A stretch of DNA of 43,762 bases from a virus. The translations under genes and the position numbers were made by a program. The stretch's first letter is position 1. Each line of letters starts with the position of its first letter. This document shows, in pieces, positions 45-33,689 of this stretch. Below the pieces are notes generated by a model, which was not told where the DNA came from, ran no database searches, and saw nothing but the letters and a program-made list of their open reading frames with translations. Where the stretch lies: positions 1 through 43,762 of the IMG/VR virus record IMGVR_UViG_3300031198_000003. One strand, given 5' to 3'.

Positions 45-284
45 CTATGCGTCTACTGCGACCTTGCGGTAGATGCCGAGAACATTCTCGGTTACAATCT
101 CATCAATCGCTTCTTCAATAGCAAGACTCTGATCGGCTTCAGACAAATCATCTGAAGTGTTGACGATCCTTGCCAGGAAGCTAGGTGTGTTGTAGCCAGC
201 GGCCCTATCAAACTGATACCACTCATCAAACTGAGTGAAAGGATTGAATGGGTTGTCCACTGTTGTTAGCATGTGTTCTGCCAT
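45..284 (-). CDS. small conserved phage protein, function unknown
   Basis: This is a 79-residue acidic soluble protein with no membrane segment. It has an aromatic N-terminal part (NPFNPFTQFDEWYQFD) and a helical C-terminal half rich in Glu, Asp and Ile. The ATG start is well supported by an AAGGAGG site six bases upstream. It lies just downstream of the putative RNA polymerase gene with a 9-base gap, so it is probably co-transcribed and co-translated with it. From memory, similar short proteins occur in other Gram-positive phages, but I cannot assign a function. A partner or regulator of the neighbouring polymerase is a guess from position only. After its stop codon only about 44 pyrimidine-rich plus-strand bases remain in the window. 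Confidence 0.8.
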   Translation of the reverse strand: MAEHMLTTVDNPFNPFTQFDEWYQFDRAAGYNTPSFLARIVNTSDDLSEADQSLAIEEAIDEIVTENVLGIYRKVAVDA

Positions 285-293
285 GTGTCCTCC

Positions 294-2963
294 TTACTCA
301 GCTATGCTGGTCTTCAGAGTGGTCAGTGATACACCAAGGGCCTCAGCTACTTCTGCCTGGGTGTAGCCTGATCTAAGCATGGCTTCTGCTCTGTTCTTCT
401 TAGCAGAAGTCATAGTCAACCGAGTCTTTGGTGTTGCAAGATGCTTAACTACGTCAAGATCTGAGTTGTTCAGAATCTGACTGAGTTTGTTACTACTGAT
501 TGCCCCTGCCTGGATGGCTGCCCACTCGGCACTTGTAATCTCGATGCGTTGTTTAGAGGCGCCGGTTCTGATGCGGGCCTCGGTCAATGCCAAACCTTTG
601 ATCTTCTTAAGTTCAGAAGCTTCCATGTTAGGGTTGGCTTGCCGCTTTTGGGAGACTATGGCGTTTGCTACGAGCTGGGCGTTTCTTTCTAAGGGTGCGT
701 TTCTAAGGGCGAGGTTCAACTTGGCGTTGAGGGAGGCCACTTCATTTGAGTAGGCGGTCTTTGCAGAAGGTGACCATGTGGCGTCCTTTGTGTTGACCAT
801 GGTCTTACGTGCTTCATTGGCCAGGTTCTTCAACTTGTTAGAGTGATCAGCGTACACCTTCTCTATGGGGGTACCAGAAGAGAGGGTGCCTGCATCATCA
901 GTCTCAGCTAGCTTAGTAGACCTGACTGTCTTAAAGACTGTCTTCCCATTAGCATCAACAAAGCTTTCGCCTGTGTTGACAAAGACTTTCTTTCCAGTAA
1001 GGGGGTCAATCGCTCCACCTTCTCGAGCAGACCGAGCCTTCCTATCTAGAACGTCAGTCCTTGAAGTGGCCCTAGAGATCAGAGTCTTAGCTCCACCTTG
1101 CTTCCTACCTTGGTACTTCTCCATCAACTGAGAGATGCCATTGTCGACGGCCGACTGCTTGTAGTTCAGGTTGTGCTTCTCTGCATCGATGACAACCATG
1201 GAGTGCCGAACTGCTCGAGCAAGCTCGGCTGCGTTAGCTCCTTGAATCGTCATGTCTGTGATGAGATTAGAAACCAACCCCATCTGAGTACCCTTGGTAC
1301 GAGCACTCATCTTAGGCATTCCGTCGTAAGCGGGATAGCTAGCTTTGGGATCGAATCCCTTCAGACCAGCCAGAGCAGGAGCAGTCTTTACCTGTCCTTT
1401 ATCGTTCGGGATGACAAGAACTGTGTCGCCGTCGAAGTCGGCTCCGGACAGACGCTCTGCTACCTTGCTGTGGATACCGACGGCATCCTTGGCATTACCC
1501 AGAATCTTACGTGCTTCTGGATGACGATTGTTCACTGTGAGTTCAGGGATCTCGAAGATGCCACCATGAGGATAGCGAACTAGTGCTACTCGTTCGCCGT
1601 TCTTGTAGTTGGGAGCATAGATCTCAGTATCCTTCATCGAGTTGATGGGGAGGATCACATGAGACATCTGTCGAGGGAGTGCAGCTGCCTTCAAGTGCAC
1701 AGCTGAGGAGTCAGCACTATCGGCGAATCCCTCGAGTAGCTTCTTCTTGACCGTCGGATTGGTCAAGGCCATGATCTCGTCTAGCTCTGCCTTCTTACGT
1801 TCAAACGTCATGTTCAACTGAGTCTTAGCAAGATTGTGATTCTGCTTAGACAGAAACTGAGAAGAAAGGTTTCGGGACCATGTGTCCCAGTCTCCTTCTT
1901 CGTTAACCACGTTCATGACTGAGGTAAGTTTAGTAACGTGTCCCTTTTCGTTACGCTCACCCAGCTGACGAACGACCGCTCCGAAGGGACTGTCTGGATC
2001 ATCAGTCATCTTCTTCATGGCATCTAGCTTGTTGCCTGTGTTGCTCTTGTTTGTGTTGAACATGAGATCCACCCCTACAGGCAGATCATCTTTGTACATC
2101 GCCATACCCTTGAGATAGTGCGTACCGTCAACAGCGATACGAACCTGAGCATAGCGTGCACCACCAAGAGATAGATCACCCTTACCTGGTCGCACATAGA
2201 TCACGCCGTCAGCATCGGCGCCACCTTGCTCAGCGTATCGAACTGCAACACGCTTAGAGGCGATGGACAAAGGTGGAAGAATTCCAGACCAGGATCGACC
2301 ACCATCGTCGGAGTAACCAGAGATCTGGCGGATCTTGTCTTTGTTGGATGCGATGTCTCGATACGTAGTACCAGGAGGGGCAAGAACCTTGACCAGAGTC
2401 TTGTTGTTGGTGCCCAGTTGATCTACCTGGATCGTGTGGACTGCGTACCCTTGTTCACGTAGAAGCGCGACCGCCACCGCAAGCTTCGTACTACTGATAC
2501 CGATGTGGTGTTCCACTCCAGTACCGATGTCGATGAAGCCCTTCTCCGCCACCTGATCTTTGAGCATGTTCGACGTAGTCGTAAGAACGTCAGCTTTGTC
2601 CTTTTGGCCCGGAGCAAGGAGAGCTCGAACCGAAGATTCATTGATGCCCATACGTTGACCGATGGCCAGATTCGAATAGCCCTTGTCCTTGAGACGTTGG
2701 GCCATAGCGATGTCGGCTTGCTTCTGCTCATTCTTGGCGATGGACTTGGCAGCCCGAAGCTGAGTAGTTGTGAACGGATGTTCTGGAGTGCTGAAAGCTT
2801 TGCAGATCTCAGCTTCACTCATTCCCTGCTTCCGAAGGTTCTCGACAGTGTCAAGGAATGTCTTGTTGCGCTCAGCCTGAGTCTCGCCTGAACCCCATGG
2901 ATAACGCCCCGACTTCCGGAGAATCCCATAGTGAGCAAGATAGACAGACTCATCAATGATCAC
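294..2963 (-). CDS. putative single-chain double-psi beta-barrel (YonO/QDE-1/crAss-type) RNA polymerase
   Basis: This 889-residue protein carries DFDGD at residues 509-513 in the context SGADFDGDTVLVI. That is the metal-binding signature of the second double-psi barrel in multisubunit beta' and in single-chain relatives (YonO, QDE-1-like RdRPs, crAss-like phage virion polymerases). About 80 residues later come a G-x-VSN-ITD stretch and IDAEKH (592-597), resembling the AVDxPK region of those enzymes. Residues 95-117 and 863-888 look like helix-turn-helix segments. The N-terminus has HYGILRKSGRYPWGSG (11-26), recalling the HFGxKGMRWG tag of two small structural-region proteins here. The start is GTG with GGAGG upstream; GTGA overlaps the stop of the preceding nuclease gene. 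RNA polymerase activity is inferred from the motif. A non-catalytic barrel or an RNA-dependent enzyme is possible. Confidence 0.7.
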   Translation of the reverse strand: MIIDESVYLAHYGILRKSGRYPWGSGETQAERNKTFLDTVENLRKQGMSEAEICKAFSTPEHPFTTTQLRAAKSIAKNEQKQADIAMAQRLKDKGYSNLAIGQRMGINESSVRALLAPGQKDKADVLTTTSNMLKDQVAEKGFIDIGTGVEHHIGISSTKLAVAVALLREQGYAVHTIQVDQLGTNNKTLVKVLAPPGTTYRDIASNKDKIRQISGYSDDGGRSWSGILPPLSIASKRVAVRYAEQGGADADGVIYVRPGKGDLSLGGARYAQVRIAVDGTHYLKGMAMYKDDLPVGVDLMFNTNKSNTGNKLDAMKKMTDDPDSPFGAVVRQLGERNEKGHVTKLTSVMNVVNEEGDWDTWSRNLSSQFLSKQNHNLAKTQLNMTFERKKAELDEIMALTNPTVKKKLLEGFADSADSSAVHLKAAALPRQMSHVILPINSMKDTEIYAPNYKNGERVALVRYPHGGIFEIPELTVNNRHPEARKILGNAKDAVGIHSKVAERLSGADFDGDTVLVIPNDKGQVKTAPALAGLKGFDPKASYPAYDGMPKMSARTKGTQMGLVSNLITDMTIQGANAAELARAVRHSMVVIDAEKHNLNYKQSAVDNGISQLMEKYQGRKQGGAKTLISRATSRTDVLDRKARSAREGGAIDPLTGKKVFVNTGESFVDANGKTVFKTVRSTKLAETDDAGTLSSGTPIEKVYADHSNKLKNLANEARKTMVNTKDATWSPSAKTAYSNEVASLNAKLNLALRNAPLERNAQLVANAIVSQKRQANPNMEASELKKIKGLALTEARIRTGASKQRIEITSAEWAAIQAGAISSNKLSQILNNSDLDVVKHLATPKTRLTMTSAKKNRAEAMLRSGYTQAEVAEALGVSLTTLKTSIAE

Positions 2964-3541
2964 AGGGCCTCCATCCTTAGTGCGTTGATCCGCTTGTCGA
3001 GGGTGATGATCTTGTCCATGATGTGGAAGATGTCGTCGACGTCAGGGATGAGAACCTGGACCTTGTCGCCTTGGTAGATCCTGAGTTCGATCTCGATGTC
3101 CATAGGACGGAAGCGGTACTCGAGACAGAACAAAGCAGCATAGATCTTGAGCTGCTCCATGGAGGGGCGAGACACGCCGTTTTTCAGATCATGGATGCGA
3201 AGCTTGTTCCTCTTGAATCCACAGGTATCCGCAGTCCCGAAGCAGTTGTCCGAATAGTACAGGATCTGCTCCGACGTCATCCGATACCCGATTGCATCGT
3301 TGACGTAGAGGTTCAGAGTCTTCTCGATCTCGGGAAGCTTAACACCAAGACGGATCAGCTGATGTGCCAGAGCGTGGAGCTCTGTGCCGCGCTGCGCAGC
3401 CACACTAGCGAAGAAGACACGCTGCATCTTGTCTTCGTCGTAGTTCACCCAGTGGTAGTTACTCGGGCTGAGCAAAGCGTGTTTGTTCGCTACCTGCTGA
3501 GGCGAATACTTGTTGAAGTCCACTAAAAACTTCTTCCTCAT
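2960..3541 (-). CDS. RecB/Cas4-like PD-(D/E)XK nuclease
   Basis: This 193-residue protein has the ordered motifs of the RecB/Cas4 exonuclease fold: RGTELHALAH (51-60), GTAD with Asp105, DLK at 118-120, and QxxxY at 130-134. It probably trims or recombines DNA ends during replication; I see no cysteine cluster for the Fe-S site of Cas4. The ATG start at 3541 lies 83 bases inside the preceding nuclease gene. A GTG at 3523, seven codons in, has a better-placed GAGGAAG site and is an alternative start. Its stop overlaps the GTG of the RNA polymerase gene, so the two are translationally coupled. Fold assignment is fairly sure; substrate is not known. Confidence 0.7.
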   Translation of the reverse strand: MRKKFLVDFNKYSPQQVANKHALLSPSNYHWVNYDEDKMQRVFFASVAAQRGTELHALAHQLIRLGVKLPEIEKTLNLYVNDAIGYRMTSEQILYYSDNCFGTADTCGFKRNKLRIHDLKNGVSRPSMEQLKIYAALFCLEYRFRPMDIEIELRIYQGDKVQVLIPDVDDIFHIMDKIITLDKRINALRMEAL

Positions 3542-3785
3542 TTGAAGGGTAGATGAAGGCCGCGAAGGACATCACGTTGAGCAGGTTGACATAGTGCCGT
3601 TGATTCGGCTGCTCTGTCGCGTCCTTCGAGATCTTCACTTCAAGCATTGCCCACTTGTCCCTGAAGAGGATCAACAGATCTGGCACTCCCTGCATGTAGC
3701 TCGAGTCATTCTTCAGAATGAAACAGCCAGGGAACTCACGCCGAGCTCTCACGATCAAATGAGATTGGTATGTGCTTTCTCGCAT
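3459..3785 (-). CDS. VRR-NUC-like nuclease
   Basis: This 108-residue protein has a compact PD-(D/E)XK core: GVPDLLIL with Pro35-Asp36, then LEVK with Glu49 and Lys51, and an alpha-helix containing Q-P-N-Q. That layout matches stand-alone VRR-NUC domain proteins of phages, a family of structure-specific or Holliday-junction-type nucleases. The start was set at ATG 3785 because GGAAGGAGG lies just upstream; a TTG five codons earlier would sit inside the ribosome site. The 3' end overlaps the next nuclease gene by 83 bases in another frame. It is likely used in recombination-dependent replication or in clearing branched DNA before packaging (inference). Confidence 0.7.
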   Translation of the reverse strand: MRESTYQSHLIVRARREFPGCFILKNDSSYMQGVPDLLILFRDKWAMLEVKISKDATEQPNQRHYVNLLNVMSFAAFIYPSNEEEVFSGLQQVFASAGSEQTRFAQPE

Positions 3786-3810
3786 CGATCCTCCTTCCAA
3801 AACTGAGAGG

Positions 3811-3860
3811 CGTATTCTACTCCTTCTATTATAACCTGCGAATAGAAAGCGAGGTATTAC
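3811..3860 (-). promoter_or_regulatory. candidate promoter before nuclease-RNA polymerase operon
   Basis: On the minus strand a perfect TATAAT (3828-3833) sits about 40 bases upstream of the VRR-NUC start, in the only gap between the HNH gene and this operon. TTCGCA is also present but only two bases before the -10, unlike the repeated promoters elsewhere in this genome, where it is about 14 bases away. No clear -35 is visible. It would drive the two nucleases, the RNA polymerase and the small terminal gene. Confidence 0.4.
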
Positions 3861-4375: not shown

Positions 4376-4690
4376 CATGAATCTGCCAAAAACCAAAAAT
4401 TTTGCTAAAAACTTTTCTAGATTAACAGAGTTAATACTCATAATAAGAGTATTAACTTTGATTACTAGGGATAGTTTTAGCGTTAGATTTGGCAGATTTG
4501 GCAGATTGGGTCCATCAAATGTCCGTTTTGTACACTTCGTCCCAAATCAGTTTCTACAAGGCCATGTCCCTAATGTCCGATTTATACCACCTTGCCCCGA
4601 TTGGTCACAGGTATGTCCTATTTTGATCCTATTTGTCCCACTCTCGCCCCGAATAGTACCTATTTATCCCTATTTGTCCTGAAATGACCC
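4376..4690. other. AT-rich intergenic region with palindrome and iteron-like repeats; candidate replication origin
   Basis: This is the largest non-coding gap in the left half. It holds a perfect 11-base inverted repeat (4429-4439 and 4447-4457, loop ATAATAA). It also has TTTGGCAGA twice in tandem near 4488-4506 with an inverted copy at 4382-4390. A series of (A/T)TGTCC-type repeats falls near 4519, 4564, 4573, 4614, 4633, 4662 and 4673, the last two being TATTTATCCC and TATTTGTCCT in tandem. Iterons, AT-rich DNA and a palindrome next to a helicase gene suggest an origin or regulator-binding region. The last repeats overlap the 3' end of the helicase gene. Confidence 0.4.
4429..4457. repeat. 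perfect 11-bp palindrome in candidate origin
   Basis: The arms AGTTAATACTC and GAGTATTAACT are exact reverse complements separated by ATAATAA. No U-run follows directly on either strand, so it reads better as an operator or origin hairpin than as a terminator. Confidence 0.7.
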
Positions 4691-6140: not shown

Positions 6141-6184
6141 CCTTTCGTAAGGGGTCTCTATTATAGGCCATGTTTCTCGCGCGA
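6141..6184 (-). promoter_or_regulatory. repeated promoter-leader module, copy 1
   Basis: Minus strand: TCGCGC, about 13 bases, TATAAT (6160-6165), then AGAGACCCCTTACGAAAGGA, which contains the ribosome site of the 81-aa gene. It matches the module found at seven places between 16.6 and 20.7 kb. Confidence 0.6.
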
Positions 6185-6194
6185 GTAAAAACAT

Positions 6195-13949: not shown

Positions 13950-14620
13950 CAGAGTCCCGCGACTTCCTTGGCGTACTCTCCGGTGCTCTGGAGGATCTCG
14001 AAGTCACGCTCGAGAACATCGTTCCGAACGTATACGACGTTCTTGTCCCCCGAACGATAACCGAATCGGAGGCAATTCAATCCGACCGTCCTGTCGACGT
14101 TCTCGACGACCATGTCCTGTTGGTCCGCGAGAACTTCGTCGCCGGCGTAGTACGTCAGAGTGTCCTGTGTGTACTCCGGCTCGTTCTGCAGGAACTCTTC
14201 CTTGCTGATGATGTACGGAGCCTCTTCGGTCCGGTTTCGTACTTCGGACTCCACGTCGACGTCTTGATCCGCTTGCTGGAAGACGTTCGCGATGACCTCC
14301 TCCACAGAGGGCTTGTTCACCACGCCAGGGTGGTACTTGTTCACGCCCTGGTAGCTCCGCAAGGCCTCGACGGCTTCGTCTATGATCGGCGCAGGAGCGA
14401 AAACGCCGATCAACTTCTCAGCTGCTGCAGCCGGCGTCTCGAACTCGCCCTTTTTGTGTAGGGCGCTGTAGAAGGTCTTGGCCTCGGCGATCTCTCGCTT
14501 CGTCATCTCCTCGTACCGCTTCTCGAGCTTCTTCTGCGCGAAGAAATAGCCCGCGGCAGCACCAGCAGCCAACGACACAACGGAAGACACGCCGACGACC
14601 ACAGCTGGACGGTTCATCAT
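13949..14620 (-). CDS. membrane-anchored phage protein (223 aa)
   Basis: An N-terminal transmembrane segment (about residues 7-28, with Gly/Ala-rich small-residue packing) is followed by a charged coiled-coil stretch (QKKLEKRYEEMTKREIAEAK) and a soluble acidic domain. A single-pass protein with its bulk in the cytoplasm is likely. ATGA overlap joins it to the DUF6353-like gene before it. With that gene and its neighbours it forms a membrane protein set beside the replication genes. Function unknown. Confidence 0.7.
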   Translation of the reverse strand: MMNRPAVVVGVSSVVSLAAGAAAGYFFAQKKLEKRYEEMTKREIAEAKTFYSALHKKGEFETPAAAAEKLIGVFAPAPIIDEAVEALRSYQGVNKYHPGVVNKPSVEEVIANVFQQADQDVDVESEVRNRTEEAPYIISKEEFLQNEPEYTQDTLTYYAGDEVLADQQDMVVENVDRTVGLNCLRFGYRSGDKNVVYVRNDVLERDFEILQSTGEYAKEVAGL

Positions 14621-15513
14621 TTTCCGATCTTGTCGTAGATGACGCCGTCCACGTTGAAGTCGAGCCGGATGGCCGCCTCCTGGCCGTTGACGAAGGCCCG
14701 GGACCGCTCGCGATTCGCGTTGAAGATCCCGAAGTCGACGAAGTTGTCTCCTTCCTTGCTGATGACCCAGCCGACGACCTGGCCGGCCTGCGTCCGCTCG
14801 ATCCCCAGCTGGTCGTAGACCTCGTTCAGGAACAGGTGGCCCTTGGAGCGCAACTTGTCGTTCGCGTAGTTCTGCTGCGCCCGCAGGAAGAGCATGTTGT
14901 ACTCTGGTTCGCGCTGGAAGTCCGGGCAGAGCTCGTCGAAGAACTTGGAGTAGACCGAGTAGCTGTTCGGGTCCAGTTCCTTGATCATCTTGGCAACCGG
15001 ACCCTCCTTGGTCTCCTCGAGGACCTCGCGCTCGACGGTGCCATAGCGGAACTCACGGTCCTTGTCCTCGCCGTACTCTCCGATGACACGCCGGCGGTAC
15101 TCGTTCCAGCCCTTCTCGAGGGCCGCGTAGGCCGCTGTAACGCCCGCCAGGCGACGATTGAGGACGACGTGGGATCCGGTGAGGGCCGCGATCGATGCGA
15201 CACCCACGAGGAATGCAGGGCCGTACAGGCGAGAGATGTTGACGACGGCCTTGGTGTAGATCAGGATCTTGTCCTTCTTGCGGTCGTCCTCGCTGTAGCC
15301 CTTCAGCTGCGCCGACTCGATGGTCAGCACGTCCTTCTCGACGCCCTCGAGGACCGCCTCGAGCTTGAGTGTCGCCTTGCTGGCCAAGACCACGGTCGTG
15401 ACGACACCGATCACGCCGGCGCCGAACAGCAGGACGGGGGAGTGCTTCTGAGCGATGAGTAGCTGACGACCCATCTTGCTTGTGATGACGTTACCGATTG
15501 CTTTCAGATTCAT
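14617..15513 (-). CDS. DUF6353-like two-pass membrane protein
   Basis: This 298-residue protein has two hydrophobic segments (about 27-45 and 90-110) joined by a charged helical hairpin, and a soluble C-terminal domain. The features KHSPVLLFGAGVIGVVTTVVLASKAT, a basic KDKILIYTKAV stretch, YGPAFLVGVASIAALTGSH and DPNSYSVYSKFFDE match what I recall of DUF6353, a phage membrane family. A paralogue with similar topology is at 17905-18663. The start overlaps the stop of the 45-aa gene (TGATG). Role unknown; a membrane scaffold for replication or assembly is speculative. Confidence 0.65.
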   Translation of the reverse strand: MNLKAIGNVITSKMGRQLLIAQKHSPVLLFGAGVIGVVTTVVLASKATLKLEAVLEGVEKDVLTIESAQLKGYSEDDRKKDKILIYTKAVVNISRLYGPAFLVGVASIAALTGSHVVLNRRLAGVTAAYAALEKGWNEYRRRVIGEYGEDKDREFRYGTVEREVLEETKEGPVAKMIKELDPNSYSVYSKFFDELCPDFQREPEYNMLFLRAQQNYANDKLRSKGHLFLNEVYDQLGIERTQAGQVVGWVISKEGDNFVDFGIFNANRERSRAFVNGQEAAIRLDFNVDGVIYDKIGK

Positions 15514-16615: not shown

Positions 16616-16660
16616 TCCTTTCGGTAGGGGTCTCATTATGAGGCGTGTTTTTTTCGCGAG
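16616..16660 (-). promoter_or_regulatory. repeated promoter-leader module, copy 2
   Basis: Minus strand: TCGCGA, 13 bases, CATAAT, then GAGACCCCTACCGAAAGGA leading into the 82-aa membrane protein. Confidence 0.65.
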
Positions 16661-16706
16661 AAATGGGCGCATGTTCGGTTGTTCAGGTCATCGGCTGTCG
16701 TGAATA

Positions 16707-17859: not shown

Positions 17860-17904
17860 CTTTCATTTAAAGGGGTCTCATTATGAGCTGTGTAGATCTT
17901 GCGA
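17860..17904 (-). promoter_or_regulatory. repeated promoter-leader module, copy 3
   Basis: Minus strand: ATCGCA, 14 bases, CATAAT, GAGACCCC, then an altered leader (TTTAAATGAAAGGA) before the 72-aa gene. Confidence 0.65.
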
Positions 17905-18663
17905 TCAGCTCAAGCGATTGTAGTCCCGAACTGGTGCCACCGCAAACGTGATCGTCATGCAGGGTCGACCGTTCTCGGCCATCGTCGCCGAGAACTTCAG
18001 ATCGAGCTGTTTGTCAACGTTCCAACCGACCTCATCTGAGACACCCGTCTTGGTGAGGCCGATCAGATAGTAGAAGTCACTCAACGATGCGTACATATCG
18101 TTGAGGACCATGCCGTTGATGTCGTTCTGAGCCTTCCGGATCGTTTCCATGTCGCTGTGGAAATATCGTCCGGAGTACATGTCGTGGCAGAGAACATCCC
18201 CGCCGCCCATTATGACCACTTCTCGAGACGGGGGGTTGTTCGTCACCCGGTCCTGAGCGATCTCGTCGCGGACGGCTTGTTCCTTGCGTTCGCCGATCTT
18301 CTCGACGACCTTTGCCTTGTACTCATCGAAGGCCTTCTCGGAAATGGCGACCATCGCAGCCATGGCGGCAGCTCGACGGGTCCCAATCCTATTGGCCATG
18401 ATGATACAGGCGATCGTGGTACATCCCATAGCGGCAGCTGGGACGTAGAGCTTCCAGGTGGAGCGCACGACCTCTTTGGTCGTCATTTCTCGACCTAGAC
18501 GATCTTGCTCCTCGTAGAAGATCTTGTAGGAGGCCTGGAAGGAAGCTTTGCTGGCCAGATATGCTGTGGCAATCGTTCCGGTGACTCCGATGGCGGTCAG
18601 AATCGCAGGAGAATTGTCTGCAGCAAATTTGGTTACTCGTGCGACGAGTCCGCTAAAGTTCAC
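17905..18663 (-). CDS. DUF6353-like two-pass membrane protein, paralogue
   Basis: This 252-residue protein has the topology of the 298-aa protein at 14617: hydrophobic segment near 18-36 (SPAILTAIGVTGTIATAYLASKA), a charged hairpin, a second segment near 70-92 (YVPAAAMGCTTIACIIMANRI), then a soluble domain with DEYKAKVVEKIGE and a tyrosine-rich end. The shared 'ASKAs' and helical pattern make a paralogue likely. The start is GTG with GAAGGG upstream; it overlaps the preceding 90-aa gene by 11 bases. Confidence 0.65.
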   Translation of the reverse strand: MNFSGLVARVTKFAADNSPAILTAIGVTGTIATAYLASKASFQASYKIFYEEQDRLGREMTTKEVVRSTWKLYVPAAAMGCTTIACIIMANRIGTRRAAAMAAMVAISEKAFDEYKAKVVEKIGERKEQAVRDEIAQDRVTNNPPSREVVIMGGGDVLCHDMYSGRYFHSDMETIRKAQNDINGMVLNDMYASLSDFYYLIGLTKTGVSDEVGWNVDKQLDLKFSATMAENGRPCMTITFAVAPVRDYNRLS

Positions 18664-19410: not shown

Positions 19411-19445
19411 AGGGGTCTCATTAAGAGCCATGTAAATTCTGCGAC
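19411..19445 (-). promoter_or_regulatory. repeated promoter-leader module, copy 4
   Basis: Minus strand: GTCGCA, 14 bases, CTTAAT, GAGACCCCTACC, then AAGGAG of the 40-aa gene. The -10 is weaker than in other copies. Confidence 0.6.
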
Positions 19446-19486
19446 AAAAATAAGAGTAGTTGCCTCGATGCAACTAATGTTTCCAA
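19446..19486 (-). ncRNA. candidate short RNA between orphan promoter and terminator
   Basis: Promoter copy 5 has no gene after it. A start about seven bases past its -10 would give roughly 40 bases, ending in the hairpin TAGTTGC-ATCGAG-GCAACTA (19457-19476) and CTCTTATTTTTG. No ORF fits. It may instead be a remnant left by duplication of promoter-gene cassettes. Confidence 0.35.
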
Positions 19487-19487
19487 T

Positions 19488-19518
19488 CTCTCATTATAAG
19501 CCGTGTGATTTCTGCGAA
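19488..19518 (-). promoter_or_regulatory. repeated promoter module, copy 5 (orphan)
   Basis: Minus strand: TTCGCA, 14 bases, TATAAT, GAGA. The CCCCTACGAAAGGA leader of the other copies is missing, consistent with no protein being translated from it. Confidence 0.65.
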
Positions 19519-19544
19519 TTTTCCACCCGGGGATTTTTTCAGAA

Positions 19545-19817: not shown

Positions 19818-19863
19818 GTCCTTTCGTAGGGGTCTCATTATAAGACGAGTAAACCCTGCGAAA
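19818..19863 (-). promoter_or_regulatory. repeated promoter-leader module, copy 6
   Basis: Minus strand: TTCGCA, 14 bases, TATAAT (19837-19842), GAGACCCCTACGAAAGGA: a full-length consensus copy. Confidence 0.7.
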
Positions 19864-19886
19864 GCAAAAGCCCTTGTGGAGGGCTC
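19860..19886 (-). terminator. rho-independent terminator after the 65-aa gene
   Basis: Minus strand: AGCCCT-CCACA-AGGGCT followed by TTTGCTTT. It abuts promoter copy 6. Confidence 0.75.
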
Positions 19887-20101: not shown

Positions 20102-20146
20102 TCCTTTCGTAGGGGTCTCATTAAGAGCCATGTAAATTCTGCGAAG
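20102..20146 (-). promoter_or_regulatory. repeated promoter-leader module, copy 7
   Basis: Minus strand: TTCGCA, 14 bases, CTTAAT, GAGACCCCTACGAAAGGA. It is almost identical to copy 4 in the spacer (GAATTTACATGGCT), showing recent duplication. Confidence 0.65.
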
Positions 20147-20149
20147 GGC

Positions 20150-20613: not shown

Positions 20614-20656
20614 CCTTTCGTAGGGGTCTCATTATACGACGTGTATAATGCGCGAC
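20614..20656 (-). promoter_or_regulatory. repeated promoter-leader module, copy 8
   Basis: Minus strand: GTCGCG, 14 bases, TATAAT (20631-20636), GAGACCCCTACGAAAGGA. It is the first copy met after the holin genes in the direction of transcription. Confidence 0.7.
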
Positions 20657-20664
20657 CTGTCCTA

Positions 20665-24651: not shown

Positions 24652-27600
24652 GGAGCCACCGCCTTCTTCGCCCTAGAGAGCTGGTTGTTGGTGTTTCGGT
24701 AGATCTCCGCCGAAGTCAATGCTTTCGGCGAGGTGTTGTATTGGTTGAACGTGAAGCTCTCGCTGTGACCCCCGGACGTAGGATCTGTGCCATCATTGGC
24801 GTTTGCCTGGAACTGTCCGGAGATATTGTGAGCAGTGGTGACCGTGTCCTTGATGATGAGCGGCGTAGCTCCAAGGATGGTTCCGATCTCACCAGCGTTC
24901 TTCTTAATATCCGTCAGATCCAACACCGGCCTGATAACGGGATCCAGGTTGATGTCATCGGTGACGATATTTGCCATGTTCGAGAGCGAGTCCTTCAGAG
25001 TGGACAATGCCTGTGCTCCGACATCTTCAGTTGCTCGAGTAACGAGATGGCTGAATTTGTTAATGCCCAACGCAAAGCCTTCATCCGTACCCATGCCGAT
25101 CTTTTCGAATTCCTTGGATGGCGAGTTGATTCCAAGGAAATCCTTTGCCGCATCCAACGCTTTCTTGGCTGCATCTCTGGCCGCTGATGCGATCCTGCCT
25201 TGGCCGGAGAATATACCCTTCACCATACCCTCAACGATGGCTGACGCTAGGTTCCAGCCCGCGTCATTCATTCGAGATGAATTACTGCGAATTGCATCTG
25301 CCATGCTGTTGATGAAGGTTATGATCAGGTTCACACCGGACTGAGTGATCCGAGGAAGACCTTTCGCAATCCCGTCAAGATATGCGGCGATGATCTCGAG
25401 CGCAATGGTCACGACTCGAGTGATGTTGTTCTTGATGCCCGTCAGGAACCCGATGAGAATCTTGTAGCCGGCTTCTACCATTTGAGGCGTTGCATCCGCC
25501 ATCTTTGTGAGAAGCATCTCGAGAAGCTTCAGCATCGTGGCGATGACCTTAGGCGCCGTCTTGTCGATGGCGTCCATGATTGCCAAGATAACTGTAGTCA
25601 TCGCAGCCGCCATCGCAGGGCCGGCTGTGGCTATGACGCCCGCAAAGGCGACAAGACCCAGTCCGATCTGAGTCATAACCATGGGGATCAGTCCAGCCAA
25701 GGCAGCAACCATGCCTACCAAAGCAGCTGTACCCGCTACTCCTGCGATACTCAGCGCAGTGAGAGCCGCTGAGAACGCCAAGAGTCCAACACCTGCAGCA
25801 AGCATGCCGATACCCAGAAGAGTTACAGCGATGCCCAACCCGATCAGTGTCGGCACGACTGGTGTGAGAATCAATCCGGCCAGACCAAGCACCACGAATA
25901 CGCCGGCAAGCATTAGGAGACCCTTTCCAATCTCCTCCCAAGACATTTGGCCGAACGTAAGTAGAACAGGCGCAAGAATAGCCAGTGACGCAGCCACAAC
26001 CAGAAGTGCCGCTGCTCCAGGTAGTGCTGCCTCCATCAAAATCATGGAAGCAACGATGAGCGTCAAGGATCCAGCAAGGAGAACCAAACTCTTGGCGATC
26101 TGCTCCCAAGACATGGAAGCCATTTCCTTGAGTGCGTCTGCAATCATTCCGAGCGACGCTGCTACCACCAGGACCGCTGCTGCACTTAGCAACGAGGACG
26201 GTGGAATAAGAATGAGCGCGGCACTGATGAGTACTAGAGCACCTGCCATGGTTGTCAAACCACGAGCGATTTCCATCCAGCTTAGATCGGCCATATCAGC
26301 GACAGCATCACTGATCAAACCCAGAGCGAAGGCAACGATGGCAACACCGGCCGCCGAGAGAGGTGCCGTTGGAGGGATCAAATTTAGCGCTGCCCCTACT
26401 AGCGCCAAACCACCGGCAAGACCAGTGAGACCTCGAGCGATTTCGACCCATGAAAGTTCTGAGAAATCCTTCACGGCACTGGCAAGGATTTTGATCCCCG
26501 CTGCCAGAAGAACAATACCCAGACCAGACAACAGGCCTGCCTTGTCTGCCGCGGCAAATTTGGTGAACAAGGTGAGACCGGCTAGAAGAGCTCCTACTCC
26601 GATCAAACCTTTAGCCAGATCTTCCCAACTCAGACTGGAAAGGTCAGTCACCGAGCTCACAAGGAGCTTGATGGCCGAGGCCAGAACGATCATACCGAGA
26701 CCCGTAGAGATGAGACCCGCGGGATTAGGCATGAATTTTGCAGTCAGCACCACGGCGGCTAGAAGAACAGAAACGCCAGTCAAGCCTTTGGCGAGACCGT
26801 TCCAGTCAAGATCAGCAAGCTTCTTGACGGCTGACGCGAGGATATCGATTGCGACGGAGAGCAGAATCAGACCTGCACCCATCGCTAGAAGTTCAGCAAT
26901 GTCACTGACTCCCATGAACTTCTCGAATATGGCCATCGCCGTGAACAGCTGGGTAAACATGACCGTGATCGCAGTCAGAGCTCGAGTGAGCCCTTCCGAG
27001 TCGATCTTGGACAGGGCCACCACGGATATAGCCAAGATCCCGACTGCTGCAGCAATCTCCAGAAGCGTTGCAGCACGCAGAGTGTTCTGCATCGCCTTGA
27101 GCGTTTCGTTCAGCTGGTCGAAAGAATCGGTGATACTATCGAACAGACCTCCGGCGCCAAGACCTCCACTGAACTTGCTAATCATGTTTCGAATGGCGAG
27201 AAGGACGGCCGCGAACGCTGTGGCATTGATGCCGGCGAACAAAGCAGTGAAGTTCACACCACCTAGAGAATCAGCAATCCACTTTCCGAGGTTGGCAAAG
27301 AAGTCTGCCATCTTCGATGCCATAGGCATGAAATTTTTCCACACGTTGGAAAGGATGTCTGGAATCTTGCTCCAAGCACCCACCAACGCAGAGCCAAGTT
27401 TTCCGAGAGGTTCGAACTTGGCGACTAGTCCGGTAACACCTTTCGCTGCATCGACTCCATTGAACTTGTCGAACAGCGAGCCGATCGCAGATGCGAACAT
27501 CCGGATGATCTTGATCGGTACCTCGAGAATATCGCCGATCTTTCCGAAGAACTTCTCGAGACCGTCGCCTTCTTTGATCGCCTTTCGCATGGCGACGAGG

Positions 27601-29066
27601 AAGTCCCCGATATTCGCAGTGATATTAAGGAAGCTACTACCTCCCTCAGATGCGACACCAAAGAGGCGGAAAAGTAGACTCACGCCTTCCTTTAGAATGT
27701 CCCATCCAATACCGAGGACCGCGAAGACGCCGGCGAAAGTCCGCTTCAACTTGTCAGCGACACCTGCGCTGAGTGTCAGACCCTTGACAAAGTCGTGGAT
27801 CGTAACGGTAAGGTCGAACAGTTGCTTGCCCGTGGTTGCGGGGAACATCTCACGGAAAGCATCTTTGATCGGCTTGATGACGGACACCAAGGCTCTGAAA
27901 GCAAAGGATATCGTCTCGATTAGTACTGTTCGACCGCCGAGCTCTTTCCAGTCGCCGATAACCTTGTTACGGGCATCGGCAGACGTAGATATGAAAGTAC
28001 CGAGAACGTTGTTGACGCTGGTGAATAGATCTCGGGCTTCGTCGAAGTCGCCGAAGATGAGCGCCCATGTTTCGGCCCATCCAGAACCTGCAGCTTCCTG
28101 CAGAGTATTGATGAGCTGCGACATGGTCTTGATTTTCGTAGCTGCGTCCTTGGCCGTCGCAGCCATTTTCAAGATGCCTTGGATCTGCATGTCGTTGTAG
28201 CCCATGGTCTTGAGTTGGGCTGCGTTCAGATCACCAGTGAACTTGCTGAGAGTCTCTGTCAGAATCTCGCCAGTTAGCCAGCCATCCTGCAACGTCATGC
28301 GGAAACTGCCAGCATCTTTTACCATCTTGTCGATGGCGACGCCGTGAATTCGAGCTGTCTCCATGAGCGAGTCTTGGAAGACCTTACCGCCCATACCTGC
28401 GTTAACGACCGAGTTCCAGTCCTCGAGCGTTACCTTGCCTGCAGATATCGCTTGGGACAACTGGTACATTGCTGTTGAAGCCTGTTGTGCACTCGAGCCG
28501 GAGACGGCTGCGAGGTTGGCAATACCCTTGATCGCTTGAGTTGCAACATCAAGCGTCACGCCGGCTGCGGTGAACGTGCCGATGTTTCGAGCCATCTCCG
28601 AGAAATTGAAGATGGTCTGATCAGAATATGTGTTCAGAATGCCCAGAGCATCCGTGACCTTGGACAGACCTGCTGCGCCAGTGAGACCGGTGTTCGCGAG
28701 AATCGTCTGAATGGAATTCAGATTCGTCTCGTATTCTGCCAAACCGCTCTTTACTGGATCGATGGTTAGAGACTTGACCAGTTGCCCACCGGTGACAAGT
28801 GCTTGATGAGCGATCGTAGTCAGAGCTGTGATTCCGATGATGGACATCGCCTTGAATTTATCTGCGATGCCTTGCACGCCGGACTCAAGGTGCGCAAGCG
28901 AAACGCTCTTGCTTGCTGCACCAAGATCAGTCAGACCCTTGGTGGCTCCCGTTAGAGCAAGGCCTTTGTTGAGAGCCTCGAGCGAACGAAGCGTTTGCTG
29001 GATACCTACTTCGAATGCCTTGTTATCAAAGGTTAGTTTGACAACTTTGTCTTCGATACTGCTCAT
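24648..29066 (-). CDS. tape measure protein
   Basis: This is the longest gene (1472 aa from ATG 29066, coupled by ATGA to the gp10-like gene). The N-terminal part is helical, with the LASIMQ-like and 'FSEMARNIGTFTAAGVTLDVA' segments common to tape measures. The middle is very hydrophobic with repeated units marked by LSW-x-E-(I/L)-A-(K/R)-GL, and the C-terminus has SPSKEFEKIGMGTDEGFALGI, a signature of phage tape measures. By the usual rule of about 0.15 nm per residue the tail should be near 220 nm. It also helps DNA cross the host membrane. Confidence 0.93.
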   Translation of the reverse strand: MSSIEDKVVKLTFDNKAFEVGIQQTLRSLEALNKGLALTGATKGLTDLGAASKSVSLAHLESGVQGIADKFKAMSIIGITALTTIAHQALVTGGQLVKSLTIDPVKSGLAEYETNLNSIQTILANTGLTGAAGLSKVTDALGILNTYSDQTIFNFSEMARNIGTFTAAGVTLDVATQAIKGIANLAAVSGSSAQQASTAMYQLSQAISAGKVTLEDWNSVVNAGMGGKVFQDSLMETARIHGVAIDKMVKDAGSFRMTLQDGWLTGEILTETLSKFTGDLNAAQLKTMGYNDMQIQGILKMAATAKDAATKIKTMSQLINTLQEAAGSGWAETWALIFGDFDEARDLFTSVNNVLGTFISTSADARNKVIGDWKELGGRTVLIETISFAFRALVSVIKPIKDAFREMFPATTGKQLFDLTVTIHDFVKGLTLSAGVADKLKRTFAGVFAVLGIGWDILKEGVSLLFRLFGVASEGGSSFLNITANIGDFLVAMRKAIKEGDGLEKFFGKIGDILEVPIKIIRMFASAIGSLFDKFNGVDAAKGVTGLVAKFEPLGKLGSALVGAWSKIPDILSNVWKNFMPMASKMADFFANLGKWIADSLGGVNFTALFAGINATAFAAVLLAIRNMISKFSGGLGAGGLFDSITDSFDQLNETLKAMQNTLRAATLLEIAAAVGILAISVVALSKIDSEGLTRALTAITVMFTQLFTAMAIFEKFMGVSDIAELLAMGAGLILLSVAIDILASAVKKLADLDWNGLAKGLTGVSVLLAAVVLTAKFMPNPAGLISTGLGMIVLASAIKLLVSSVTDLSSLSWEDLAKGLIGVGALLAGLTLFTKFAAADKAGLLSGLGIVLLAAGIKILASAVKDFSELSWVEIARGLTGLAGGLALVGAALNLIPPTAPLSAAGVAIVAFALGLISDAVADMADLSWMEIARGLTTMAGALVLISAALILIPPSSLLSAAAVLVVAASLGMIADALKEMASMSWEQIAKSLVLLAGSLTLIVASMILMEAALPGAAALLVVAASLAILAPVLLTFGQMSWEEIGKGLLMLAGVFVVLGLAGLILTPVVPTLIGLGIAVTLLGIGMLAAGVGLLAFSAALTALSIAGVAGTAALVGMVAALAGLIPMVMTQIGLGLVAFAGVIATAGPAMAAAMTTVILAIMDAIDKTAPKVIATMLKLLEMLLTKMADATPQMVEAGYKILIGFLTGIKNNITRVVTIALEIIAAYLDGIAKGLPRITQSGVNLIITFINSMADAIRSNSSRMNDAGWNLASAIVEGMVKGIFSGQGRIASAARDAAKKALDAAKDFLGINSPSKEFEKIGMGTDEGFALGINKFSHLVTRATEDVGAQALSTLKDSLSNMANIVTDDINLDPVIRPVLDLTDIKKNAGEIGTILGATPLIIKDTVTTAHNISGQFQANANDGTDPTSGGHSESFTFNQYNTSPKALTSAEIYRNTNNQLSRAKKAVAP
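25925..26830 (-). repeat. tandem 56-60-residue hydrophobic repeats inside the tape measure
   Basis: Six units carry a marker such as LDWNGLAKGL, LSWEDLAKGL, LSWVEIARGL, LSWMEIARGL, MSWEQIAKSL and MSWEEIGKGL, about 168-178 bases apart. A degenerate seventh lies upstream of them in the protein. Each unit also has a hydrophobic stretch of 20 or more residues. Confidence 0.75.
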
Positions 29067-30545: not shown

Positions 30546-31265
30546 CTATAGAGAGCTAATGTCGTAGGAGACTGCATCAATATAGACTGCAGACGGCCAG
30601 GTGATCTGAAAAGTTGTTGCATCGATCATTTGAATCGCACTATCTGGACCAATCGCAGTCCAAGTGCCGTCCCCATGATCGATGATTCGAAGTATGGAGT
30701 TCGCTTCGAAGATATTGAAGATCTCCTCTGGCGTTGGCAGGCGCGCACTTTCGGCCGGCGTTCCATACAGAACATCTTCGAGATCGGAGAGAGTAGATGA
30801 ATATGCATCTGTCGTGTCGATGACAAGATGCGCACTCAGCTTTGCTTCCGGAATAACAATCGGTTTGGTGGTAAAATCCCAAATGAAGGGGTCTGTCTCC
30901 GATTGTTTTCTGGAAATTTCCCCCCGGGGAAAATCGACGTTGTAAATCAGATGAATCTTGTAGCCTCCGTTGTACCTGACTCGATAACTCAACCCAAACG
31001 ATTTACGTCTTGTCTGAGTAAGAATATCGCTGTGGAGACTATTTGGGTAGGTAAAAGCCTCGATAGATCCTGAGAAATCAGCTACCCGTCGACGAAGATG
31101 AGTTTTCACTCCATCGATATATCTACTGCTTACTTCTTCGTTGGCGCTATCCTCTTGCACGGAGATCAAACCATTCCAGGCTTCTCCAGGACCATCTTTC
31201 GGATAGAATACCCCGCGATCTAGTCCTTGCTCGTAAGCTCGAGCATCCCAGATCAACCTAGTAAT
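30546..31265 (-). CDS. tail-tube paralogue 2 with C-terminal extension; possible ATT start
   Basis: This protein (about 239 aa) aligns along its length with the major tail protein and with the 212-aa neighbour: LIWDARAYEQGLDRGVFYP, WNGLISVQE, YIDGVKTHL, RRKSFGLSYRVRYNGGYKIHLIYNV and a C-terminal LSDLEDVLYGT. A short extension after it (GDGTWTAIGPDSA..ITWPSAVYID) is unique in the set. No ATG fits. ATT at 31265, six bases after GGAGG, gives an N-terminus (I/M-TRLIWD) that matches the paralogues; the first standard codon is TTG 31256, poorly spaced. Confidence 0.7.
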   Translation of the reverse strand: MTRLIWDARAYEQGLDRGVFYPKDGPGEAWNGLISVQEDSANEEVSSRYIDGVKTHLRRRVADFSGSIEAFTYPNSLHSDILTQTRRKSFGLSYRVRYNGGYKIHLIYNVDFPRGEISRKQSETDPFIWDFTTKPIVIPEAKLSAHLVIDTTDAYSSTLSDLEDVLYGTPAESARLPTPEEIFNIFEANSILRIIDHGDGTWTAIGPDSAIQMIDATTFQITWPSAVYIDAVSYDISSL

Positions 31266-31275
31266 GACACACCTC

Positions 31276-31914
31276 CTAACTCGAGAATATGTCGATCAAT
31301 TCGTCTGGTGCGGGCAGCCTGGCTGATGTACTCGAGTTTCCGTAGACGATGTCCTCTAAGTCAGCGAGAATATCGCTATCGGTGTATCGAGAATCAATCA
31401 CTAGATGCGCCGTACGCCTGTATCCGGTGATCTCTGGCGCCAGTGTGGTGATGGACCAGCTGAGTGCAGCCGGATCCACCGTATCTTTGATCGTGTTGTT
31501 ATTTCGCTGTGAGGATCCAGCGAGGGCGTTGTACACCAGATGAATCTTGTATCCGTGCTCAGATCCTTGAAGGTCGTTACCAACTCTCGTTCGATACGAT
31601 AACCCAAAGGATTTCTTCGGCTGATGAGTCACGAACAGACCATTCTGAATGGCCTTGACCCCCTCGCAGACCCCGAAGGCTGAAGGACTGCTGTATGCTG
31701 CGACGGTTGCCTCAAACTCCTCGGCCGTGGAGAGGTTGAGGTACTTGATTCCATCGATGTAGTAGGGTTTCGGATCTCCTCCGGACGGAGACTCGGAAAC
31801 CGAGATCAAACCCGTCCAAGCGACACCAGGAGTGGCATCCACGTACAGAACGCCTCGATCAACGCCTGTTTCGTAGAACCTTTCGCCAATGGCGTCCCAG
31901 GTAAGTCTAGGCAC
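31276..31914 (-). CDS. tail-tube paralogue 1 (212 aa)
   Basis: It shares with the major tail protein the N-terminus (PRLTWDAIGERFYETGVDRGVLYV), AWTGLISVSESPSGG, YIDGIKYLNLSTAEEFEATVAAYS, KKSFGLSYRTRVGND, GYKIHLVYNA and LEDIVYG. It lacks the C-terminal extra domain of the main copy. Start is GTG four bases after AGGAGG. It may form a minor ring at the tube end, or a second tube form (inference). Confidence 0.8.
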   Translation of the reverse strand: MPRLTWDAIGERFYETGVDRGVLYVDATPGVAWTGLISVSESPSGGDPKPYYIDGIKYLNLSTAEEFEATVAAYSSPSAFGVCEGVKAIQNGLFVTHQPKKSFGLSYRTRVGNDLQGSEHGYKIHLVYNALAGSSQRNNNTIKDTVDPAALSWSITTLAPEITGYRRTAHLVIDSRYTDSDILADLEDIVYGNSSTSARLPAPDELIDIFSS

Positions 31915-31925
31915 TATCCCTCCTC

Positions 31926-32468
31926 TCAGCCTCGAGTGCCGTACTTTGCCCTTCTCTGATCATTCAGTTCGCGTTGCTTCCGGGCAATCTCTCCGGGACT
32001 CATCTTCTTCTGTGGAGCATTCTTCTGGTTACACACCTTGATGAGCGTCAGCAATCTATTCAAATGCCAACTCTGACACTCAAACGGGATGTTCAAAGCG
32101 ATCATCCAGTAGTAGATCAGTTCCGCTGTGATGATCTCTCGACTGCGGCGGTTGTTTTCTTTGTCGTTGAACCACGTGGCAGTCATCTTCGCACTGATGT
32201 AGGTATTGATCGCTGCATAGTGCTCAGGTTTGAACATCCCGTAAACCTCTGGAGAAACCTCCGAGGAGATTGTCATGGCCTTGATGTACCACAACATCTC
32301 CTCGGAGGTCTTTTCCGCGGAGCCAAGGAAGGGTTTTTCGAAATTTGACTCCCATTTTGACAGTGAAACTAGAGAATGCTCCAGAACCAGAGAGAATGAC
32401 TCCTGAGTTACGAATTCATTCTTTAGTTCGTCGAAACCCTCGACTGTAACCACAGTTAGGGTGAGCAT
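31926..32468 (-). CDS. tail assembly chaperone candidate (180 aa)
   Basis: A helical soluble protein right after the major tail gene. It has [72 protein letters not shown] and a C-terminal [15 protein letters not shown]. That WHLNRL-and-RR-tail pattern belongs, as I recall, to tail chaperones of Gram-positive phages. I see no slippery frameshift sequence joining it to another frame. ATG with AAGGAG upstream. A chaperone for the tape measure is likely. Confidence 0.65.
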
Positions 32469-32487
32469 TCTCTAATCTCCTTGTCTT

Positions 32488-33372
32488 TTACGCGAAGGTG
32501 ATCAGCCAGTCGTCGTCGGTGACCGCCGGGAACTTGTATCCGGTCGCTGGGTGAGCGGTGACGACGACATTCGCGGTGATCGGACCGTAGGCGCCGGCCG
32601 GAACGACCTCGCCATTGACCTTGTAGATGACGCCGGTGGTGCCCGGGATGGTGATGATGTCCGTGGACGAGTTGTACGTCGGGACGCCCGGGGTGACCTG
32701 GGTGATGGTGCCGGCGAAGAGCGCGATCACGTCGGCCGGGAGGGGCAGGGACGGATCGGTGCCGACCGTACCGTACAGAAGTTCCATCAGAGCGGTCAGG
32801 GCGTCGGCGTCGACCTTGGTGGAGTCGATCGTCAGGATGGCCGTCGGCTTGTAGTCGACCGAAGAGATCGTCCCGACGTTGACTGGCGTTGTGGTGATCT
32901 CCCACGAGAACGTGATGGCCTCGGGCGAGTCGTTGACCGTCCCGTAGGCACGCTCCGAGGGAGCCGCCTGGGCGCCGTAGACCAGGTGCAGCTTGAAGCC
33001 GAAGCTGGTGCCGTTGACGTCGTTGCCCATCAGGGTGCGGTAGCTCAGGCCGAACGACTTGCGGCCCTGCTGACCGATCGTGATGCCGACCTCGGGGGCC
33101 GCGGTGCCGTCGTACTGACCCCACTCCTCCGGGTAGGTGAAGGCCTCGAGCGTGGCACCGAAGTCCTCGGCACTGACCAGGTTCAGGTACTTGATGTTGT
33201 CCGCGAACTGCGGGCTGGACTCCGCGCCGGACGGCGACTCGGTGACCGACACCAGACCGTTCCAGGCCACACCGTTGTCGTAGACGCCAGTGTTGTCGGG
33301 CATGTAGAGAACGCCGTGATCCACGCCGGTCTCGTAAACCCGCTCACCGGTCTGATCCCAAACCAGTTGCAT
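32488..33372 (-). CDS. major tail (tube) protein with C-terminal accessory domain
   Basis: This 294-residue protein carries the tail-tube core MQLVWDQTGERVYETGVDHG, WNGLVSVTESPSGAESS, YLNLVSAEDFGATLEAFTYPEEW, GRKSFGLSYRTLMGND, FKLHLVYGAQAAPSE and LMELLYGT. Its C-terminal 70 residues form a separate beta domain that matches the C-terminal domain of the major capsid protein. ATG 33372 was chosen as GAAAGG is well spaced. The core G+C looks higher than neighbouring minor genes, as expected for a highly expressed gene. It is the leading member of three paralogues. Confidence 0.85.
   Translation of the reverse strand: MQLVWDQTGERVYETGVDHGVLYMPDNTGVYDNGVAWNGLVSVTESPSGAESSPQFADNIKYLNLVSAEDFGATLEAFTYPEEWGQYDGTAAPEVGITIGQQGRKSFGLSYRTLMGNDVNGTSFGFKLHLVYGAQAAPSERAYGTVNDSPEAITFSWEITTTPVNVGTISSVDYKPTAILTIDSTKVDADALTALMELLYGTVGTDPSLPLPADVIALFAGTITQVTPGVPTYNSSTDIITIPGTTGVIYKVNGEVVPAGAYGPITANVVVTAHPATGYKFPAVTDDDWLITFA
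32491..32705 (-). other. C-terminal domain shared by major tail and major capsid proteins (tail copy)
   Basis: Landmarks: PGVPTYNSSTDIITIPGTTGVIYK, PAGAYGPI, VVVTAHPATGYKF, DDWLITF, parallel to the capsid copy at 34018-34250. It is a small beta-sandwich by pattern, probably surface exposed. Confidence 0.65.
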
Positions 33373-33383
33373 GTGGTTGCCTT

Positions 33384-33689
33384 TCAGAAAAATAGTTCGA
33401 ACACGTCGTGGTTGAGATTGTTTGCGGCGAAGTACCTGTTGTAGGTACACAACCGCATCGCGGCGACTCTGCCCAGAATATCCGTGTCCGGATTCCGGCT
33501 GATCAAGGTCACCTGGTATCGCTGGGTATAGCGATACGGGTCATTGCCAGCGAACTGAGTAACCGCGCTGTCTCGTCGGTAGACAATGCACGGATACTCC
33601 ATCTGCACACTCGCCGGAGGCTGGAAATATACTTGGTCTGTACCAAGAATCGTCTCGAGAAGAGTCTGGAGATCAAGCCTTGGGTCCAT
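33384..33689 (-). CDS. tail terminator-like protein (101 aa)
   Basis: A short alpha/beta protein located just before the major tail gene, where tail terminators lie. It has LQTLLETILGTDQVYFQPP, YPCIVYRRDSA, RYTQRYQVTLISRNPDTDI and a C-terminal helix, features of tail terminator/gpU-like proteins (YPxIVY, YxVTLI). ATG 33689 lies inside the end of the preceding gene (17-base overlap). Confidence 0.7.
   Translation of the reverse strand: MDPRLDLQTLLETILGTDQVYFQPPASVQMEYPCIVYRRDSAVTQFAGNDPYRYTQRYQVTLISRNPDTDILGRVAAMRLCTYNRYFAANNLNHDVFELFF

Follow-up and report, generated by a model that had tools for sequence, protein, structure and literature searches.

YonO of phage SPbeta is a proven DNA-dependent RNA polymerase that serves late genes, and according to its authors it was yet to be determined which promoter sequence the enzyme uses and whether it locates that sequence unaided (PMC5467207). 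In phage P23-45, early genes are transcribed by phage enzymes and late genes by the host polymerase; gp64 of that phage and gp62 of phage P74-26 transcribe early genes from promoters of their own (PMC10770324). Another phage polymerase, gp66 of the crAss-like phage phi14:2, is a virion component (PMC10770324 and its references). Here we describe a gene at positions 294-2963, minus strand, of IMG/VR virus record IMGVR_UViG_3300031198_000003, which is covered from position 1 to position 43,762 and is called the window below. Its 889-residue product is supported as a single-chain RNA polymerase of the two-barrel (double-psi beta-barrel, DPBB) superfamily. A recurring non-coding element lies ahead of non-structural genes and of the polymerase's own operon, and we consider it probable that the enzyme is DNA-dependent and starts transcription at this fixed-spacing class of promoters as its own. 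The fold, the conserved catalytic residues and the motif, with its spacing, strand, position and co-occurrence with the gene, were computed in this analysis.

The open reading frame had been pointed out in an earlier note made from the letters alone. It exists at the place given; the strand had to be corrected to minus, where the frame begins with GTG, and the plus strand is filled with stops. DFDGD at residues 509-513 and IDAEKH at 592-597 are where that note put them. The features of the gene and protein are as follows.

294-2963, minus strand: single-chain two-barrel RNA polymerase, 889 amino acids, phrog_4291 (profile match, model, fold comparison)
2886-2939, minus strand: N-terminal peptide, residues 9-26, L-x-H-Y-G-x-x-R-x-S-G-R-Y-P-W-G-S-G (almost invariant; predicted local distance difference test, pLDDT, about 34-55)
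2613-2828, minus strand: N-terminal tandem helix-turn-helix (HTH) region, about residues 46-117, candidate DNA reader (model helices; phrog_3855 HTH and Pfam HTH matches)
1899-2273, minus strand: first barrel region, DPBB-B-like, residues 231-355, with invariant K285 and K306 (model strands, invariance, structural alignment range)
1404-1676, minus strand: second barrel region, DPBB-A-like, residues 430-520, with R463-x-P465 (model; hhalign to YonO, P23-45 gp64 and a cyanobacterial plasmid protein)
1425-1439, minus strand: DFDGD, predicted catalytic Mg2+-binding aspartates, residues 509-513 (invariance)
1173-1304, minus strand: bridge-helix-like segment, residues 554-597, MGxVSNLITDMT ... HSMVVIDAEKH (two long model helices; invariant residues; G-x-x-SN-x-IT in common with YonO)
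300-425, minus strand: C-terminal HTH, about residues 847-888 (Sigma70_r4_2 and HTH_23 exceed Pfam cut-offs)

The phrog_4291 profile matches the protein over its full length (residues 5-888, E = 0). An AlphaFold model built on an alignment of 54 relatives (mean pLDDT 79, predicted template modeling score, pTM, 0.61) contains beta-barrel regions with strands in residues 239-355 and 433-519, two long helices between them, and DFDGD in the second. In the fold search that the earlier note had proposed, QDE-1 was the best solved Foldseek match (E 3e-9). Structural alignment over residues 231-729 gave Z 16.6 for RDR2 and 16.2 for QDE-1, followed by the non-virion RNA polymerases of the Thermus phages P23-45 (Z 13.2) and P74-26 (Z 12.5). 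Searches of PDB sequences with the protein and with its profile returned HTH or chance matches only, so the link to solved structures comes from the fold comparison. An NCBIfam search of the protein gave no match, and the Pfam RdRP model (PF05183) scored 12.8 bits, below its gathering cut-off of 23.8 (E 0.046).

All five residues of DFDGD (D509, F510, D511, G512 and D513) are invariant in the 54 aligned relatives. When homologs from phages of Lactococcus, Faecalibacterium, Rhodococcus, Gordonia, Arthrobacter and Microbacterium were added to give a 65-sequence set, DFDGD, R463-x-P465, K285, K306 and much of the bridge-helix-like segment remained invariant. DFDGD is therefore no chance match. 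R463-x-P465 aligns with R-x-P of YonO; K285 and K306 were picked out by invariance in the sequence alone. Together, the fold matches and the invariant residues support the earlier identification of a single-chain two-barrel polymerase.

Phage 1706 orf75 has Pfam HTH and Sigma70_r4_2 matches at the place equivalent to the N-terminal HTH region. Few stretches of the family are as conserved as the N-terminal peptide: 11 of the 16 columns from H11 to G26 are invariant in the 65 sequences, and every homolog listed has it. High conservation despite low model confidence is as expected for a docking peptide, and the stretch is a candidate docking or virion-targeting motif.

The proposal in the earlier note that this gene would widen the known range of the fold does not hold. 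The family is present in 250 of 50,697 phage records by tblastn, from phages of Arthrobacter, Gordonia, Streptomyces, Lactococcus, Curtobacterium, Rhodococcus, Microbacterium and Faecalibacterium, and RefSeq already calls it RNA-dependent RNA polymerase. Relatives are also encoded by at least 153 stretches of bacterial and archaeal assemblies, mostly of Firmicutes; the 80 that were listed come mostly from Lachnospiraceae, Oscillospiraceae and other Clostridia. The family is thus known but uncharacterized, and the window protein is one more member of phrog_4291.

The promoter candidate emerged from sequences that repeat in the window's non-coding gaps. The same element recurs, with identical spacing, in phages RosaAsantewaa and Scap1, Arthrobacter phage Arcadia and Lactococcus phage 1706, and its pattern is CGC-N7-ACA-N5-TATAAT-(R)AGA. 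Sites from Arcadia and 1706 alone were used to train a matrix, which was then applied to the other genomes. Matches on the coding and reverse strands numbered 10 and 0 in the window, 8 and 0 in RosaAsantewaa, 7 and 0 in Scap1, 16 and 0 in ReqiPepy6, 14 and 1 in Avazak, and 9 and 0 in Camille, against a background of about 0.5-0.8 matches per shuffled genome. Outside the family, SPbeta gave 1 and 0, and a 20-kb piece of P23-45 gave 0 and 0.

A refined matrix found 87 sites in nine genomes and none on the reverse strand. Its consensus is T-CGC-R-N-R-W-W-W-W-ACA-Y-R-N-C-C-TATARTGAGA. The most conserved positions are CGC, ACA and the final T of the hexamer, and the C of ACA alone is fully invariant. 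The motif mostly ends 13-25 nucleotides 5' of a start codon that has a ribosome-binding site. In the annotated genomes all refined sites fall outside the head-and-tail block, and none was found in the structural half of any of the nine, where a second promoter type may exist. One tail-region site of the window (32465-32498; 7.6 bits in the first scan) was dropped because it fell under the refined threshold. The window sites comprise seven 5' of small genes at 16.6-20.7 kb, one ahead of the helicase operon and a weaker one ahead of the polymerase operon.

3822-3855, minus strand: candidate promoter 5' of the polymerase operon (weak variant TCGC-N6-TCGCAG-N2-TATAATAGAAGG, 12.4 bits)
6154-6187, minus strand: candidate promoter 5' of the helicase operon (27.0 bits; CGC-N7-ACA-N5 core exact)
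16629-16662, minus strand: candidate promoter (matrix and pattern scan)
17874-17907, minus strand: candidate promoter (matrix and pattern scan)
19414-19447, minus strand: candidate promoter (matrix and pattern scan)
19487-19520, minus strand: candidate promoter, then a terminator-like hairpin at 19457-19476 (matrix and pattern scan)
19831-19864, minus strand: candidate promoter (matrix scan)
20114-20147, minus strand: candidate promoter (matrix and pattern scan)
20625-20658, minus strand: candidate promoter, the first past the structural and lysis block (matrix and pattern scan)

The tandem candidates at 19414-19520 (minus strand) flank the hairpin, and the first would give a very short transcript, possibly a small RNA. 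The literature searched gave no description of this promoter, though no search was aimed at the motif itself.

The spacing of the element is strict. The exact pattern TCGC-N5-TTACA-N5-TATAAT-N-AGA occurs in at least 120 stretches of 2.9 million viral contigs, and the same pattern with one base inserted before TATAAT occurs in none of them. Among the matches listed, the polymerase is encoded by 31 of the 43 motif contigs of at least 25 kb (one 79-residue match discounted) and by all 24 of those of at least 40 kb. The 12 listed motif contigs without it may be fragments, since all are shorter than 40 kb; the primase-polymerase typical of the lineage is full in five of them, nearly full in one and a stub in one. 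Approached from the gene, a relaxed motif was present in 20 of 22 polymerase-encoding genomes, on one strand each time, and the pattern written backwards gave zero. It was found in none of 22 YonO prophages (76-218 kb).

More distant relatives gave the same picture. Across the 80 genome-assembly loci, whose identity is 43-56%, the spacing CGC-N7-ACA-N5-hexamer occurred 71 times on the coding strand and once on the reverse, with 0-3 occurrences for each other spacing tested, and 77 of the loci had a scored site. The sites cluster about 0.95 kb 5' of the polymerase, ahead of a nuclease-exonuclease-polymerase operon, in 62 of 70 Firmicute/other genome loci and 49 of 74 IMG/VR loci. The frame CGC-N7-ACA-N5 was found in phages of Streptomyces, Arthrobacter, Gordonia, Rhodococcus, Microbacterium, Lactococcus and gut Clostridia.

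We then considered what reads the motif. No -35 element was found at a spacer of 16-18; the best TTGACA match scored 2.47 of 6, compared with 2.43 at random positions. A sigma-70 pattern scan of the promoter-rich block gave 1 site where shuffles gave 3.3 expected, and the TATAAT boxes are therefore no canonical sigma-70 promoters. Firmicute relatives retain the CGC/ACA frame but mostly have TTTTAT or TGTTAT as the hexamer, and of 62 Firmicute/other sites 42 carry T at the second hexamer position. Sigma-70 needs the A at -11 of the hexamer, which TTTTAT and TGTTAT do not have. The motif tracks the phage lineage across bacterial phyla, not the host, and the hexamer varies with the polymerase clade. 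Because there is no -35 element, the Firmicute hexamers do without the A that sigma-70 requires, the signal follows the lineage, and the protein has DNA-binding domains of its own together with catalytic barrels, the phage enzyme is the likely reader. A repressor operator was judged a less likely meaning, as the motif is non-palindromic, strictly oriented and at a near-fixed distance 5' of start codons.

Beside this, Firmicute polymerase operons mostly have TTTTAT-GAAGAG where actinophages have TATAAT-AGAAGG; with the CGC-N7-ACA-N5 frame unchanged, they form a natural series in which polymerase and promoter co-evolution could be studied.

In the mode of action that we propose, the enzyme, with HTH domains at both ends, would take DNA as its template and initiate at CGC-N7-ACA-N5-TATAAT-(R)AGA ahead of non-structural genes, so that early genes would be transcribed by the phage enzyme. 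A candidate promoter also precedes its own operon, and we therefore infer autoregulation in which the enzyme amplifies itself. The structural genes, which do without this promoter, would probably be left to the host polymerase or another route. Since the signal serves non-structural genes and the enzyme's own operon, the timing would be closer to that of P23-45 than to that of YonO.

Several observations weigh against this reading. The polymerase model is of moderate quality, as its pTM indicates. Faecalibacterium phage FP_oengus was weak in the first scan, with 3 coding-strand matches and 1 on the reverse, and the site ahead of the polymerase operon of the window, at 12.4 bits, is a weak variant. 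The actinophage hexamer is mostly TATAAT, as in sigma-70 promoters. Finally, motif and gene occur together inside a single phage lineage. Its members also have a primase-polymerase, nucleases and further genes in common, which co-occur equally well, and the reader could thus be some other factor specific to the lineage.

If the operon depends on its own product, it must get its first dose of enzyme from some source. It is quite plausible, just short of being our expectation, that the enzyme is not in the virion and that the operon is first transcribed by the host polymerase before the phage enzyme takes over, as a non-virion RNA polymerase like P23-45 gp64. The gene lies in the replication block and not in the structural block, which fits this order of events. 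The phage-type promoter of the polymerase operon itself speaks for a supply that arrives with the virion, and so does one annotation: the homolog orf75 of phage 1706 is named "structural protein" in the original record EU081845. That record marks predicted functions as "putative" and gives orf75 and others the plain label, a wording that suggests detection in particles. It is a single deposit, repeated by the annotators of ReqiPepy6. We treat virion carriage, by which enzyme for the first round of transcription may arrive, as a serious possibility hinted at by that deposit and not as a result. In its full form the proposal would be that an Actinobacteria/Firmicutes phage lineage with hundreds of members carries and injects a sigma-free polymerase, packaged by the tag L-x-HYG-x2-R-x-SGRYPWGSG, whose terminal HTHs read the promoter and which transcribes all early genes and its own operon without need of the host polymerase. 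We advance this form tentatively and somewhat doubt it.

Two small proteins that flank the terminase gene (39413-39757 and 37311-37658, minus strand) carry a DUF7211 peptide, HFGVKGMRWG and HFGIKGMRWG, and 1706 orf7, deposited as a structural protein, has the DUF7211 peptide twice. A likeness between DUF7211 (HxGxxGMxWG) and the polymerase N-terminus was seen by eye only; the Pfam model gave no match, and the likeness was not used as evidence.

The main rival to the phage enzyme as reader is that the motif is a host sigma-70 promoter, with the host polymerase on the TATAAT-like box, a phage activator on CGC/ACA, and the two-barrel enzyme at work elsewhere, for example on late genes like YonO. 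We consider this unlikely. The actinophage hexamer would suit it, and unless enzyme enters alongside the DNA the host polymerase must begin transcription. However, it does not account for the missing -35 element, or for CGC and ACA being among the most conserved positions. Nor does it explain why the frame is kept where Firmicute hexamers have lost the -11 A, why it is common to phages of very different bacteria, or why the structural half has no refined sites. A role on RNA, as the RefSeq and PHROGs label RNA-dependent RNA polymerase would have it (making double-stranded RNA or copying transcripts, for example), is very improbable. In its favor, QDE-1 and RDR2 are the best solved matches and the Pfam RdRP model matches weakly here and at E 7e-5 in 1706 orf75. 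Against it, QDE-1 also copies DNA (entries 7y7r/s/t), DNA-binding HTH domains lie at either end of the chain, and the gene comes from a double-stranded DNA phage and goes together with a promoter-like DNA motif. Moreover, DNA is the template of the nearest phage enzymes that have been characterized, YonO (PMC5467207) and P23-45 gp64 (PMC10770324). We thus retain the reading of a DNA-dependent enzyme at its own promoters.

The rest of the window agrees with what the earlier note had said of the virus. Its terminase, tape measure and tail genes fit a siphovirus, and an actinobacterial one fits its nearest named relatives, the Streptomyces Scapunavirus phages RosaAsantewaa and Scap1 (66% identity to Scapunavirus). 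A 93% identical relative is present in IMG/VR. Essentially all genes are co-oriented on one strand, in the order endolysin, terminase, portal, capsid-protease fusion, major tail proteins, tape measure and tail proteins, then a small-gene block, primase-polymerase, helicase, HNH, VRR-Nuc, exonuclease, polymerase and one small end gene. The immediate neighbors of the polymerase gene are these.

3459-3800, minus strand: VRR-Nuc-type endonuclease, first gene of the operon (phrog_93 and synteny)
2960-3541, minus strand: RecB/Cas4-like exonuclease, operon-mate of the polymerase and overlapping its start (phrog_3953)
45-284, minus strand: small conserved gene 3' of the polymerase, the final gene before the genome end (synteny)

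Rfam and tRNA scans of the window gave no match. Three adjoining genes belong to the major tail protein family phrog_2645 (30546-31256, 31276-31914 and 32488-33450, minus strand), and phrog_2152, a family of unknown function, has two copies (14617-15513 and 17905-18663, minus strand). An 839-residue open frame at 25681-28200 on the plus strand, antisense to the tape measure gene, is probably a by-product of codon composition. The 218-base gap at 4442-4659, between the helicase and HNH genes, is AT-rich and full of near-repeats of GGGACA/GGACAT, which may be replication-origin iterons or mark the site of a regulator.

Compared with known systems, the window protein shows no essential difference from the phrog_4291 proteins of actinophages, Lactococcus 1706-like and P078-like phages and Faecalibacterium phage FP_oengus. 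They are full-length members of the same family with the same motif, and mostly share the gene order VRR-Nuc, exonuclease, polymerase, small last gene. Family members are currently labeled RNA-dependent RNA polymerase (RefSeq), HTH protein (SEA-PHAGES), tail fiber or structural protein, and our reading would correct these labels on hundreds of records. P23-45 gp64, a solved RNA polymerase (PDB 8F72), is likewise still a "head protein" in its RefSeq phage record.

YonO (phrog_8308) is a single chain of similar size whose DxDGD, R-x-P-H and G-x-x-SN-x-IT can be aligned with the window protein. However, it has DNDGD, serves late genes from an undefined promoter in phages without the motif, and finds its full-length matches in other PHROGs. 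The phrog_8308 profile matches residues 435-530 only (E 5.8e-4) and hhalign to YonO covers 439-570 only (about 100-130 residues); since only these residues match, the window protein is a relative of YonO and not a member of its family. The catalytic barrel also aligns by hhalign with the cyanobacterial plasmid protein (E 7.5e-10).

P23-45 gp64 and P74-26 gp62 (PDB 8F72, 8F5M) are two-barrel single chains of long-tailed phages with a fold in common with the window protein, but they are about 600 residues long and use a different, GC-rich promoter. By hhalign, DFDGD falls on DYDGD of gp64 (E 0.0026; 76 columns of the catalytic barrel), and no sequence homology to gp64 was found beyond that barrel, although the fold is common. 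The eukaryotic RNA-silencing polymerases QDE-1 and RDR2 are the closest solved fold (Z about 16); they are cellular, with about 10-14% identity, and we know of no promoter for them. phi14:2 gp66 (PDB 6VR4), also a single-chain two-barrel phage polymerase, is much larger; it was not among the fold matches listed, and its absence there is no exclusion.

As part of the reading we favor, the window protein is probably a sister of YonO, P23-45 gp64 and QDE-1. Against these systems, what is new is the candidate promoter, the apparent autoregulation and early-gene role, and the hint of virion carriage, in a family that was itself already known. A sister family of YonO, present in hundreds of phages, now has a promoter candidate, which makes it testable in vitro how a single-chain enzyme finds its start site, perhaps without a sigma factor. 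Enzyme and motif may also form an orthogonal pair of polymerase and promoter for use in Actinobacteria and gut Clostridia.

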